The notes below the pieces were generated by a model that saw nothing but the letters and a program-made list of their open reading frames with translations, did no database searches and was not told the DNA's origin. Source: Chitinophagaceae bacterium (lineage in GTDB: Bacteria > Bacteroidota > Bacteroidia > Chitinophagales > Chitinophagaceae). From it: DNA of 64,000 nt. The translations under genes were made by a program, and so were the position numbers. Positions 51,218 to 58,037 of the stretch are shown one piece after another. Position 1 is the stretch's first letter, and every line of letters starts with the position of its first letter. Location of the stretch: NCBI GenBank assembly GCA_027486835.1, contig JAIXOJ010000133.1:1-64000 (forward strand). Direction: 5' to 3'.

Positions 51218-51477
51218 CTCATCAGCTTTTGTCAGCTCATTTTTTCACTTTAATAATGGGTTTGTGCCAGTTGTTTAATATTCCGACTACGGTAATTACC
51301 ACATCGGGTAATTGACCAATAAAAAAAACAAATCTTGTCAACGAACCGATTGTCCGTTTACACCTTCAAACCATCAGATTAATGAAACAAATGCAAAGGA
51401 TAAAGCATCCGGGGTGCCCGATAATGAAAACGAGACACAGAACACACAAAAAAGCTGTCAGATTGTCCACCCCAAGC

Positions 51478-51792
51478 GTCGAAATGTTCTCCCGTGTAGT
51501 CGGAACGTTCTCCCGTGCGGTCGGAATGTTCTCCCGGGTGGTCGGAACGTTCATCTCGTCGGCCAGATTGTCAGTTTCGGTGGTCGGAATGTTCTCCCGT
51601 GCGGTCGGAACGTTCTCCCGTGTAGTTGGAATGTTCTCCCGTGTGGTCGGAACGTTCTCCCGTGCGGTCGGAATGTTCTCCCGTGCGGTCGGAATGTTCT
51701 CCCATACAGTCGGAATGTTCTCCTACAGAGTCGGAAGGTTTACCCTTGTGTTCGGAAGATTCTCCTACACGGTCGGAAGGATCTCTCAGAGA
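51478..51792. repeat. 21-bp tandem repeat array, 15 units
   Basis: Fifteen 21-base units of the form GTCGGAATGTTCTCCC plus GTGCG. Units in the middle are nearly identical while those at both ends (units 4-5 and 12-15) have decayed. All three plus-strand frames and part of the minus strand remain open, giving heptapeptides NVLPCGR, SRVVGMF or ECSPVRS. That multiplicity argues against any of them being a selected protein. Confidence 0.92.
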
Positions 51793-52005
51793 GTTGGAAA
51801 GGGCAAACTACTTATAGAAAAGAAGTACATTAATATTCACTTGTTTTGCTGTAATTAGCTGCTTAATTAACTGCAACTATTACCGTATTACCACACAAAA
51901 AATCATTTTGGGAAGAAAAAAACTGATGTAATCCTATAGAAAGGTAATTGTCCAAAAAAGAGAATAACAATAGCAAAAAATGGTTTTTCCAAATTTTTAA
52001 AATAT
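51793..52005. other. AT-rich leader before the orphan gene
   Basis: About 210 bases with no gene between the array and the promoter of the next gene. Nothing else is seen. Confidence 0.35.
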
Positions 52006-53985: not shown

Positions 53986-54014
53986 AAAAGAATGATCGAT
54001 GCAAGAATATTCTT

Positions 54015-54097
54015 CCCAGCTGGTGCGCGCTTGTAGCGCGTACCATTCGCATAGGTCTTCGCTACAATTCTCCTAAGTAACTTTTCCGCTGGGCAAG
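54015..54097. repeat. Structured REP-like element
   Basis: CCCAGC (54015-54020) pairs with GCTGGG (54088-54093) and encloses an inner hairpin GGTGCGCGC...GCGCGTACC (54022-54044). The GC-rich, nested layout resembles REP/RAYT-type elements. It lies 30 bases after the SanA-like gene. Confidence 0.55.
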
Positions 54098-54349
54098 TCT
54101 CAAAAATAGAAACCTGATATTTCCGAATACTAGTTATGTGTTTTGTCCAGATACAATAAGCAAAAAATCTGAATTGAGGAAGAAGCAAACATGCTTTTGC
54201 ATTTAACAAATGAATCGAAACGAGTTGCGAATATTATGGACGTAAATTACAACCCTCAAAATCGTTTAGTGAACATAAAAATGTACTTCTCTATTTGTTT
54301 TTTTGAATTCAACTGTTACCAAAACTTTCTAACTTCACCGTGTAAAAAA

Positions 54350-54475
54350 TTATGCACAGTTCATTCAAATTAATGTAGCTACAAAATGTTTTCAGACAGC
54401 AATTGGCATTGATAATCAATGTGTTTTAGTTTGCTCGCCTTATTCACAAGGTGAGCAATCAACAACTTATCCACA
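54350..54475 (+). promoter_or_regulatory. Three same-strand TTATNCACA motifs upstream of the Doc module
   Basis: TTATGCACA (54350-54358), TTATTCACA (54440-54448) and TTATCCACA (54467-54475) all match the DnaA-box consensus exactly and point the same way within 126 bases of AT-rich leader. DnaA binding is inference; no replication gene is near. Confidence 0.4.
54407..54458. promoter_or_regulatory. Two palindromes, candidate operators of the Doc module
   Basis: CATTGAT-A-ATCAATG (54407-54421) is an exact 7-base palindrome around one base. TTGCTCGCCTT (54431-54441) and AAGGTGAGCAA (54448-54458) form an 11-base inverted repeat with one G-T mismatch, 29 bases before the start at 54488. Their place is right for autoregulation by the DNA-binding protein encoded next. 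Confidence 0.55.
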
Positions 54476-54487
54476 AATTTTAGGAAC

Positions 54488-55555
54488 ATGAGAGATTTAA
54501 CCACATCACCCATCGACAGACAGAACATACTAAATAATCTTGATGCTGTTATGAATATACAAGAGTATTTGGGCGTTAAAGGTTTGCTGTTTGAAGGTGA
54601 ATTTAAATTTACTACCAAAATGGTAGCAGCGTTTTATAAAATAGATATAAAAACTGTAAAAAGATATGTTGAAAATAGCCACAATGAAATAGCACATAAT
54701 GGTTACGAAGTAATTAAGGGGCAGAAACTAAAATTATTTAAAGAACAATTTGGTTATTTTATAACCAATCTAGACGACATTGAACAGAGGGACATCAATG
54801 TCCCTCTGTTAACTGAAACGCTTGAAAATCAATCAAAAAGTCGTATTAAAGCATTAGCGCTTTTCAACTTTCGCTCATTTCTCAATTTAGGTATGTTGCT
54901 TGTAGAAAGTGAAATGGCAAAAGCTATTCGTAGCAAAATGCTTGATATAGTTATTGATACACTCAATAAGCGTTTAGGAGGCTCTACAAAATACATTAAT
55001 CAACGTGATGAAGATTTTTTTCACAGTATCATAAAAGAGCCAATGTATCGCAAGGAATTTACATCTGCATTGCATAAACATCTAAATATGGGCAACTATA
55101 AATATGCCTATTATACCGATGCTATATATAAATGTATTTTCCAAGAAAACGCTAACGAATATAAGCAAATATTAAAGTTAGAAGAGCAAGAAAACCCAAG
55201 AGATACCATGTATGCAGAAGTGCTAAATCTAATTGCATCTTTCGAAACTGGCTTGGCTTATGAAATGGAAATTAAAGTGGGTGTTTTAGGCAGAATGCTA
55301 GAAAAAAACGAGATGGATGAACTGATAAAAACATTTGCAAATCATCCTTCTCATAAGCCACATATTGAAAATGCAAGAATAAAAATGGCTTCAAGAGATT
55401 ATGGCTTTAGACAAGTATTGCACGAAAATTTAAAAACCTATATCAGCAGTATTGACTTTTCAGATTATCAACGTTTTCTTGGAGATAAAAGCAAAGTATT
55501 ACAAGATAGAATTGAAGATAGTATTGATGTTTTTAAAAGATTAAAAGACAGATGA
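54488..55555 (+). CDS. Putative DNA-binding partner (antitoxin candidate) of a Doc toxin
   Basis: 355 residues. The N-terminus (about 35-75) reads EGEFKFTTKMVAAFYKIDIKTVKRYVENS, a helix-turn-helix-like segment of the kind seen in RhuM/phage-antirepressor-type DNA-binding proteins. A GYEVIKGQKLKLF beta hairpin follows. The rest is helical and unassigned, with GTGLAYEMEIKVG-like helices and a charged C-terminus. It is far larger than Phd or YefM-type antitoxins. The Doc gene starts 4 bases after its stop, so the pair is surely co-transcribed. Antitoxin function is inferred from gene order only. Confidence 0.65.
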   Translation: MRDLTTSPIDRQNILNNLDAVMNIQEYLGVKGLLFEGEFKFTTKMVAAFYKIDIKTVKRYVENSHNEIAHNGYEVIKGQKLKLFKEQFGYFITNLDDIEQRDINVPLLTETLENQSKSRIKALALFNFRSFLNLGMLLVESEMAKAIRSKMLDIVIDTLNKRLGGSTKYINQRDEDFFHSIIKEPMYRKEFTSALHKHLNMGNYKYAYYTDAIYKCIFQENANEYKQILKLEEQENPRDTMYAEVLNLIASFETGLAYEMEIKVGVLGRMLEKNEMDELIKTFANHPSHKPHIENARIKMASRDYGFRQVLHENLKTYISSIDFSDYQRFLGDKSKVLQDRIEDSIDVFKRLKDR

Positions 55556-55559
55556 TACT

Positions 55560-56003
55560 ATGGAAGAAGTATATTACTTCGATACGGTTCATGCTATTAT
55601 TGTTCACGATGACATTATATCTAAATCGGGTGGTCTTCAAGGAATTCGTGATTTGGGGCAGTTAGAAAGTATTTTGATGCATATCCAGAACGATTTATAT
55701 TATCCTAATTTTGAAGACAAACTAACGCATCTGTTTTATGCAATAAATAAAGGACATGCATTTTCAGATGGAAATAAACGTTCTTCTATTGCTCTATCGT
55801 CATACTTTATGGAAATAAATGGGTACGATTTTGTAGTACGCAAATTCATTAGTGAAACGGAAAATATTGCAGTAGATGTTGCAGATAATCGAGTAGATAA
55901 AGAACTTTTATCGGAGATAATTTACTCGCTCCTTTATGAATATGATTACAGCGATGAACTTAAACTTAAAATTATTGAAGCAAAGCAAAGACAACTTTAT
56001 TGA
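55560..56003 (+). CDS. Doc/Fic-family death-on-curing toxin
   Basis: 147 residues. The Fic motif is HAFSDGNKRSS (about residues 64-74), close to HxFx[DN]GNKR with catalytic His and the Asp-Gly-Asn-Lys-Arg loop intact. The N-terminal HDDIISKSGGLQGIRDLGQLESIL matches the Doc subfamily. Doc enzymes phosphorylate EF-Tu and stop translation; other Fic proteins add AMP. The protein lacks an obvious inhibitory [ST]xxxE[GN] helix, so control is probably by the upstream partner. Confidence 0.88.
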   Translation: MEEVYYFDTVHAIIVHDDIISKSGGLQGIRDLGQLESILMHIQNDLYYPNFEDKLTHLFYAINKGHAFSDGNKRSSIALSSYFMEINGYDFVVRKFISETENIAVDVADNRVDKELLSEIIYSLLYEYDYSDELKLKIIEAKQRQLY

Positions 56004-56281: not shown

Positions 56282-56321
56282 AAGTTGGGGCTGTCTAACA
56301 CAATATAGACAGCCCCAACTT
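56282..56321. terminator. Perfect hairpin between doc and ftcD
   Basis: 16-base exact inverted repeat AAGTTGGGGCTGTCTA and its complement with an 8-base loop. It lacks a strong T run on either strand but lies 33 bases past the ftcD stop, where a terminator is expected. Confidence 0.6.
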
Positions 56322-56354: not shown

Positions 56355-58037
56355 CTACAACTTCTCCTCCACTATCCTCAAAATTTCCTTTTCCATTGCA
56401 ATAGCTTGTTGCTCCATAGCAGTCGCACGAGTAAGTATGGTGTCGGTAAAAGATTTATCCTGATAACCAGCAGCATTAATGCGCACATTTAAAAAAGCCC
56501 CCCTAACGGCAGTGGTGGCGCAAAGCGCAGCAACCCCCGCATCGCTAATTGAATTTGGATTGCCGATTGCCGCCATTTCTTTAATCACTTCCATACTACC
56601 CAAAGCAGCTTCCATCACCTGAAAAGGTATTTCTATGGCATACTTAGTAGCAGCCTGAATGGCTTGGCTGCGGGCGCTTTTTTCGGCATCCGAATTTTTC
56701 GGCAAGCCAAATGCAGCCATAATTTCATTAAAAGCCAAGGTGTCTAAGTCCACCAGCCTAGCTAATGTTTGTTTTGCCGCTTGCGCTTTTTCTGCCCATT
56801 GGCTAAAAATTTCCCATTGGTCGTCCCATCCTTTTTTATGAGCCGATAAGTTGGCTACCATTCCCGCCAGCGATGCACCCAATGCCCCCACATAAGCCGA
56901 GATAGACCCACCCCCAGGCGCAGGACTTTCGCTTGCCGTTTCATCGGCAAAATCTGCTAGACTCCTGTTGATTAGTTTGGCATCCGCAGGATTATTGAGT
57001 AAGTATTCAATAATTCGCTCTTCAGGTTTAAAAGGTGTAAGCTCATCAAGCCCCATGGTTTTAATAGCCAAGCGAATAAGTTCTTTGTCGCTCACACCGG
57101 CGGAGCGTTGCTGTTTTCGCAGAAAATATTTACCCGCTTCTAAGAGTGATTGCAAAGGCACCAGCCCCACCAATTCGCTACCTGTAACCCGAATGCCTCT
57201 AGCTGCCGCTTTGTTGCATACTTCATCAAAGGCAATGTGTAGAGGCGTTACGCTAATATTGGTCAAGTTCATAGAAATCTGGGCAATACCATATTCCTCA
57301 ATATACCAACCTATCGCTTTTACCGATTTTAAACTTCCCGGCACGTTCACGGCCTTTCCATATTCGTCTTTTACAATTGGCCCATTGATAGGGTCGCCAG
57401 TTCTCAATACCCTTCCAGCCTCTCTCACATCAAAAGCAATAGAATTGGCCCTGCGGGTAGAAGTGGTGTTAAGATTTACATTGTACGCAATTAAAAAATC
57501 CCTCGCCCCAATTACGGTAGCACCTCGCTGTGCATCAAAAACGGCTGGGCCACAATCGGGTTTCCATTCGGGCAATACAATTTTTTCGGCAAAGCCTTCA
57601 TACTCTCCTGCACGGATGATAGATAGGTTGCTGCGCTTTTTGTTGGGCTGAGCGTGTTCGTACAAATAAACAGGTAAGTTCAGTTCCTCGCCCACCCGTT
57701 GAGCCAGTTGTTGGGCATAGCCAGCACATTCTTCCATCGTTACCCCCGAAATAGGGATTAGTGGGCATACGTCCGTTGCGCCCATCCTAGGGTGTTCGCC
57801 TTTGTGAAGCCGCATATCTATTAGTACGCCTGCTTTTTTTATTGCCCTAAAAGCAGCCTCAATTACTTTTTCTGGTTCTCCCACAAAAGTTACTACGGTT
57901 CTGTTAGTAGCTTTTCCTGGATCTACGTTCAACAACTTTACCCCTTCTACAGTGGTAATTTCTTGCGTAATCTCGTGTATAATATGGGCATCCCTACCCT
58001 CGCTAAAATTGGGTACACATTCTATAATTCTATCCAT
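56355..58037 (-). CDS. ftcD: Glutamate formimidoyltransferase fused to formimidoyl-THF cyclodeaminase
   Basis: 560 residues. The N-terminal formiminotransferase (about 1-325) starts RIIECVPNFSEGRD and has HKGEHPRMGATDVCPLIP. The C-terminal cyclodeaminase (about 345-560) has ESPAPGGGSISAYVGALGASLAGMV. Together they move the formimino group from formiminoglutamate to tetrahydrofolate and release ammonia, giving glutamate and methenyl-THF. This completes the pathway begun by hutHUI, whose operon lies 26 kb away. Both domains look complete. Confidence 0.95.
   Translation of the reverse strand: MDRIIECVPNFSEGRDAHIIHEITQEITTVEGVKLLNVDPGKATNRTVVTFVGEPEKVIEAAFRAIKKAGVLIDMRLHKGEHPRMGATDVCPLIPISGVTMEECAGYAQQLAQRVGEELNLPVYLYEHAQPNKKRSNLSIIRAGEYEGFAEKIVLPEWKPDCGPAVFDAQRGATVIGARDFLIAYNVNLNTTSTRRANSIAFDVREAGRVLRTGDPINGPIVKDEYGKAVNVPGSLKSVKAIGWYIEEYGIAQISMNLTNISVTPLHIAFDEVCNKAAARGIRVTGSELVGLVPLQSLLEAGKYFLRKQQRSAGVSDKELIRLAIKTMGLDELTPFKPEERIIEYLLNNPADAKLINRSLADFADETASESPAPGGGSISAYVGALGASLAGMVANLSAHKKGWDDQWEIFSQWAEKAQAAKQTLARLVDLDTLAFNEIMAAFGLPKNSDAEKSARSQAIQAATKYAIEIPFQVMEAALGSMEVIKEMAAIGNPNSISDAGVAALCATTAVRGAFLNVRINAAGYQDKSFTDTILTRATAMEQQAIAMEKEILRIVEEKL

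Follow-up and report, generated by a model that had tools for sequence, protein, structure and literature searches.

What is a gene for a Doc/Fic-type protein doing directly behind a gene for a 355-residue protein, when Phd, the partner of Doc in phage P1, has about 73 amino acids? The pair lies in the window analysed here, a stretch of 64,000 nucleotides from a Chitinophagaceae bacterium (contig JAIXOJ010000133.1). The original prediction took it for a self-contained, autoregulated and undescribed toxin module whose large first protein carries an N-terminal helix-turn-helix (HTH)-like segment, and pointed to an intact Fic motif in the second, two palindromes in front of the first gene and a REP-like element further upstream. 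We refer to the two genes as A and D. Their coordinates were confirmed, with a gap of 4 nt between them, and the motif, both palindromes and the REP-like element are present (Table 1); the element has 13 other partial matches in the same genome (G000), at 80-87% identity. The strongest palindrome of the region had been overlooked: it lies inside gene A.

Table 1. Features of the A-D locus, in positions of the window
Feature	Position	Strand	Basis
Gene A (PDC-M59A), 355-aa DNA-binding partner	54488..55555	+	ORF; PADLOC PDC-M59A match
HTH of A, residues 41-63; recognition helix 54-63 with K55, K58, R59	54608..54676	+	model; covariation with dyad
Intragenic dyad AACAGAGGGACATCAATGTCCCTCTGTT, linker codons from residue 99; predicted cognate site of A	54783..54810	.	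inverted-repeat scan, covariation, codon shuffles
Upstream dyad TTGCTCGCCTTATTCACAAGGTGAGCAA, type seen upstream of A in L007/L008; probably older operator	54431..54458	.	L007/L008 counterparts
Second upstream palindrome CATTGATAATCAATG	54407..54421	.	inverted-repeat scan
Gene D (PDC-M59B), 147-aa Doc/Fic protein	55560..56003	+	Pfam, TIGRFAM, PADLOC, fold
Fic/Doc active-site motif HAFSDGNKR, residues 66-74 of D	55755..55781	+	invariant positions in 45 sequences
REP-like interspersed repeat, upstream of module, not part of module	54005..54098	.	partial copies in G000; inverted repeats I2 and I4

Several other features of the surroundings were recorded. Between D and a convergent FTCD gene (56355-58037) there is a strong, terminator-like inverted repeat (AAGTTGGGGCTGTC...GACAGCCCCAACTT, 56282-56321), and upstream, at 51312-51858, an ORF built from RNVLPCG-type repeat units, where repeated DNA occurs on both strands. 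The FTCD gene went unmatched when the 12 other genomes of the genus were searched, for which reason the region may be accessory; with that result, and with one close match for a DUF218 gene, an empty site was not demonstrable. The genome holds twelve Fic-domain places and four RhuM matches.

Gene D encodes a Doc/Fic protein. It matched Pfam Fic (3.4e-11) and TIGR01550 (8.8e-15), PHROGs likewise returned Doc/Fic, and its AlphaFold model (pLDDT 95) has the Doc fold, with P1 Doc (3dd7) at a target TM of 0.78. Within the motif H66, F68, D70, G71, N72, K73 and R74 are invariant in 45 sequences, and D has both the Fic fold and the HxFx[D/N][A/G]NKR motif by which Doc/Fic toxins are recognised. We also considered a Fic AMPylase (HxFx[D/E]GN[G/K]RxxR) and rejected it: HAFSDGNKRSSIAL has I77, without the second Arg three residues after the motif. 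In lacking this arginine D resembles Doc rather than AMPylases.

Protein A could not be placed in a known, well-studied antitoxin family by these comparisons. It gave no useful match in Pfam, NCBIfam or PDB sequence searches, nothing was found in the PDB with a profile of A either, and at 355 aa without a Phd match it is not the small Phd/YefM-type antitoxin that defines Phd-Doc. The HTH-like segment of the original prediction is backed by the predicted structure, with helices at 43-50 and 54-63 followed by a strand at 73-77, in a model of moderate confidence (pLDDT 77, pTM 0.46), and by the covariation with DNA described below. Further likenesses, to ORF6N/KilA-N/Bro-type phage regulators and DdrC, are weak. 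Of 48 A proteins, 16 matched ORF6N weakly (best 1.4e-4), and window A had no Pfam match; a fold search returned KilA-N-type viral proteins and an unnamed viral protein (6.6e-7), as well as DdrC (3.4e-3), all with TM-scores of 0.3-0.45, too weak for DdrC or KilA-N to be taken as the family of A. Membership in RhuM (PF13310) was rejected as well, there being no profile match and an HHalign alignment of only the 32 HTH columns (E=0.008, probability 5%). A conserved Fic-inhibition motif in A was likewise not supported: [ST]xxxE[GN] at residue 216 occurs in 27 of 83 A proteins and is absent there in window A. As part of the reading that we consider probable, A would be a sequence-specific DNA-binding protein with an N-terminal HTH, a flexible linker and a helical core weakly resembling KilA-N/ORF6N.

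The system is not undescribed in the sense of the original prediction, as it is already listed in PADLOC-DB 2.0.0. A (profile PDC-M59A, E=4.6e-100) and D (PDC-M59B, E=1.1e-31) match both subunits of the candidate defence system PDC-M59 over most of their length, adjacent and in the same order. PADLOC candidates are reportedly attributed, going by the title of a preprint, to embedding inside known defence systems. A search of PMC, a partial coverage without bioRxiv and with few subscription journals, returned no paper on PDC-M59 by name.

The two genes belong together far beyond this genome. A scan of GTDB genomes for A gave 221 relatives, and the best 80 of these 221 loci, which were kept, come from Bacteroidota, Proteobacteria, Campylobacterota, Bacillota, Verrucomicrobiota, Spirochaetes and others. 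D lies directly downstream of A in 77 of the 80 by search and in 79 once contig ends and frameshifts are read; in the three remaining loci the contig ends within D, D is frameshifted, and D is absent (L045). The pair is thus conserved as the self-contained unit that had been supposed. In a sample of 395 Bacteroidota genomes, each of the 20 strong D homologues lies next to an A match, and one intact A stands without D (G283). The pair also occurs on 20 IMG/VR contigs. D is broken with A open in four loci (L019, L022, L046, L065), as expected if D is the harmful member; the 80 loci were chosen with A as query, and the reverse case, A broken and D intact, was covered in the Bacteroidota sample. 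Several genomes (G144, G166, G295, G307 and others) hold N-terminal remnants of A, and in G295 roughly one open frame separates the start of A from the end of D, as an internal deletion would leave them.

An inverted-repeat scan of the nearest relatives placed a dyad inside gene A in the window, L016 and L017, and 24-72 nt upstream of A in a Flavobacterium-type group. Most A genes carry such a dyad of 26-30 bp in the linker just after the HTH. Among 83 A genes less than 85% identical, 48 strong inverted repeats fall within a single 30-column stretch of the alignment, the linker that joins HTH and core; the remainder of all coding sequences together has 4. A looser scan, with a threshold calibrated on a different part of these genes, found a site in 75 of the 83; 65 of these sites lie at +270 to +329 and 10 upstream. 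When codons were shuffled synonymously, 66/83 linkers exceeded their own shuffles at p<=0.05 versus 2/83 for a control segment, so that in those 66 genes the dyad is not a by-product of the protein sequence. Of 627 pairs in its arms 592 are kept, and compensatory changes are frequent; the dyad is under selection at the DNA level. With up to 3 mismatches allowed, the window's internal dyad occurs at only this place in the 6.4 Mb genome. Viral contigs matched the dyad patterns mostly outside A genes, with 5 matched places inside them; in a collection of that size the short pattern by itself is therefore not diagnostic. Two unusual arrangements were seen: L010 has two copies of nearly the same dyad, centred at +312 (internal) and -136 (upstream) from the start of A, and L021 has a dyad of the window type (GACAGAGGGGCATTAATGTCCCTCTGTC) at about -560, outside A.

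The protein and the dyad change in step. When half-site bases were compared with protein columns by mutual information, the maxima fell in the recognition helix: base -4 scored highest with residue 59 (z=36.9; the next, 21.6, is a column encoded by the dyad itself), bases -8 and -7 with residue 58, and base -6 with residue 55. At position 59, R goes with C in 33 cases and with A in 1, and N with A in 18, that is, 51 of 52 clear cases fit (Fisher p=4e-13, a statistic that ignores relatedness). At position 58, E goes with CC (27/28), D with AC (14) and K with GG; at position 55, R goes with GA (42) and S, A or V mostly with CT or CG. Residues 55, 58 and 59 lie on one face of the helix, and the pairings are chemically usual ones. 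On 27 genes kept outside the derivation of the rules, themselves relatives of training genes, the residue-59 rule predicted base -4 in 46 of 50 half-sites and the residue-55 rule base -6 in 46 of 54, while the residue-58 rule was weaker (25/38); the misses were mostly in genes without an internal site. For the E. coli protein (L210:4858-5871; A55, E58, R59) the rule correctly predicts the half-sites, which are CCCTCAT at +282 within its own dyad GATGGTGCCCTCATTAATGAGGGTACCAAG. Independent contrasts on a tree of the core gave about 15 in the predicted direction over four tests, the rest neutral and none opposed; each of these tree-corrected tests is small (p 0.06-0.5) and the four are not fully independent. 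Taken with the position of the dyad, the covariation of helix and half-site strongly indicates that the dyad is the site of A, which we accordingly denote as its predicted operator. One locus, L064:1811-4977, carries two tandem A-D pairs whose recognition helices and dyads differ, as if kept separate.

The window gene itself looks like a mosaic. Its protein shares 83% identity with that of L007 over residues 1-30 and 81% over 118-355, but 45% over 31-88; against L009, L016 and L017 identity is 60-64% in residues 31-88 and 61-66% in the core. The helix of the window protein (K55, K58, R59) and its internal site (ACAGAGGGACAT) are of the L016/L017 type. The upstream dyad of the window is nearly the dyad found in operator position upstream of L007 and L008, and homologous to it, and the helices of those two relatives have S55 and D58. 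Taken alone the upstream dyad is not significant against shuffles (p=0.15), and the case for it rests on these counterparts. The simplest reading would be that HTH and linker of the window gene were replaced as one block and the older upstream operator was left behind.

What, then, does the pair do? We think it probable that this is a two-gene Fic/Doc module in which A acts both as a DNA-binding autoregulator at its own dyad and as the neutralising partner of the Doc-type toxin D. A would bind the 26-30 bp dyad in its own linker codons as a dimer, or in some lineages a dyad just upstream of the start codon, and this binding would feed back on the expression of A and D, by a block of elongation at the internal site or of initiation at the upstream one. 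Repression at the internal site might work as a roadblock or through an internal promoter for D; no Bacteroidota-type promoter (TTTG, 17-23, TAnnTTTG) was found near the module, and sigma-70-like promoters over the internal dyad of the E. coli copy did not go beyond chance numbers. As far as sequence can tell, A most likely binds its own gene and limits transcription of both genes, in agreement with the autoregulation originally proposed for it. From the order of the genes, D's dependence on A and the analogy with Phd-Doc, A most likely also holds D in check. We infer that in this antitoxin role A would silence a protein-modifying toxin, which infection or the loss of A would set free, and that freed D would stop growth, with phage defence as the outcome. 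The frequent restriction-modification neighbours of the pair also speak for this module. P1 Doc phosphorylates EF-Tu, and D would probably modify a translation factor in the same manner.

A toxin and its antitoxin may also be kept as an ordinary addiction or maintenance cassette, with no role in phage defence, and this is the strongest of the alternatives, possible if rather doubtful. It agrees with the association of the pair with mobile elements: in satellite phages of Streptococcus the pair adjoins the integrase, and in an Ilyobacter prophage it follows a Type III endonuclease. In E. coli it is limited to a patch of 20 out of 5,426 genomes, and its scattered distribution and the remnants in several genomes are also what a maintenance cassette would leave. 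The association with restriction-modification (R-M) operons and the PADLOC listing as a defence candidate speak against it, although neither is a proof of defence.

The same R-M association opens another possibility, namely that the pair works as a regulatory switch and not as a toxin-antitoxin system, A being a local regulator of its operon, often an R-M operon, and D a modifier of A or of another regulator, without growth arrest. The neighbours of the pair include Type I, Type III and Eco57I-type R-M genes as well as GmrSD, with an R-M gene at most 3 ORFs away in 39 of 78 loci and on both sides in 26 of 66; placed between modification and restriction genes as A often is, its internal operator would control the restriction gene downstream. 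As a single site in its genome, the dyad would have A act locally, and an unrelated small repressor, RptR, does control an R-M operon in which a toxin system is embedded (PMC12255303). We nevertheless regard a switch as improbable, since both genes are kept even where R-M genes are not close by, as in the window and in half of the loci overall, D has the full Doc motif, and the four loci with broken D beside intact A fit a harmful D.

That the palindrome is an RNA hairpin serving attenuation or translation control is very improbable: it lies within transcribed sequence and could fold, yet among the arm mismatches G-T pairs are no commoner than A-C ones (11 and 9, with 15 others), an absence of G-U excess that argues for a DNA site, the palindrome covaries residue by residue with the recognition helix, and the same type of dyad stands upstream of the start codon in other members.

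The known systems closest to the pair include RhuM. Like A, RhuM (PF13310) and the RhuM-Doc fusions (PADLOC PDC-S05, PDC-S23) are N-terminal DNA-binding-type proteins coupled to Doc, and coupling or fusion of RhuM to Doc, in or near R-M loci, has been reported (PMC3710099; PMC1626090). RhuM is often fused to a Doc domain. Among the RhuM genes of L087-L110 and L388-L410, 27 of 39 have a strong inverted repeat immediately after the HTH, at +209, with 4 elsewhere in the coding sequences, and classes of helix appear, by eye, to go with classes of site. RhuM thus shares with A an intragenic dyad just after the HTH and differs from it as a member of PF13310. With A outside that family, the shared arrangement would reflect either common descent too old to be seen or convergence. 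RhuM was proposed in 2013 as a toxin domain (PMC3710099); our data suggest a different role, that of a DNA-binding regulator whose operator is internal.

We lean towards the view that both PDC-M59A and RhuM carry their cognate operator in the coding sequence, that HTH and site would form an exchangeable specificity cassette, and that the window gene records one such exchange. As far as the literature covered shows, neither the internal operator nor its code nor the parallel with RhuM has been described. A listed and uncharacterised defence candidate would thereby gain a testable regulatory mechanism and a readable protein-DNA code. With the site inside its own gene, protein and binding site change and move together; an operator beside the segment encoding its reader would explain how a mobile module regulates itself in an operon without a promoter of its own, and how co-resident copies, such as the tandem pairs with different helices and sites, stay separate.

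Compared with Phd-Doc of phage P1, D has the same Doc fold and HxFxDxNKR motif, with G at residue 71 where P1 Doc has A; in both systems the small gene comes second in the operon, and an autoregulating partner is expected in both. The difference lies in A, with its 355 residues, HTH and helical core, and in a predicted operator situated inside the gene. The PDC-M59 entry is a candidate only, and the papers searched give no mechanism for it and do not mention an internal operator. A repressor site within a coding region has a classical precedent in lacO2, which lies in lacZ. In contrast to internal operators of that type, the predicted site of A stands in the repressor's own gene, beside the segment encoding its reader, and does so across most of the family.
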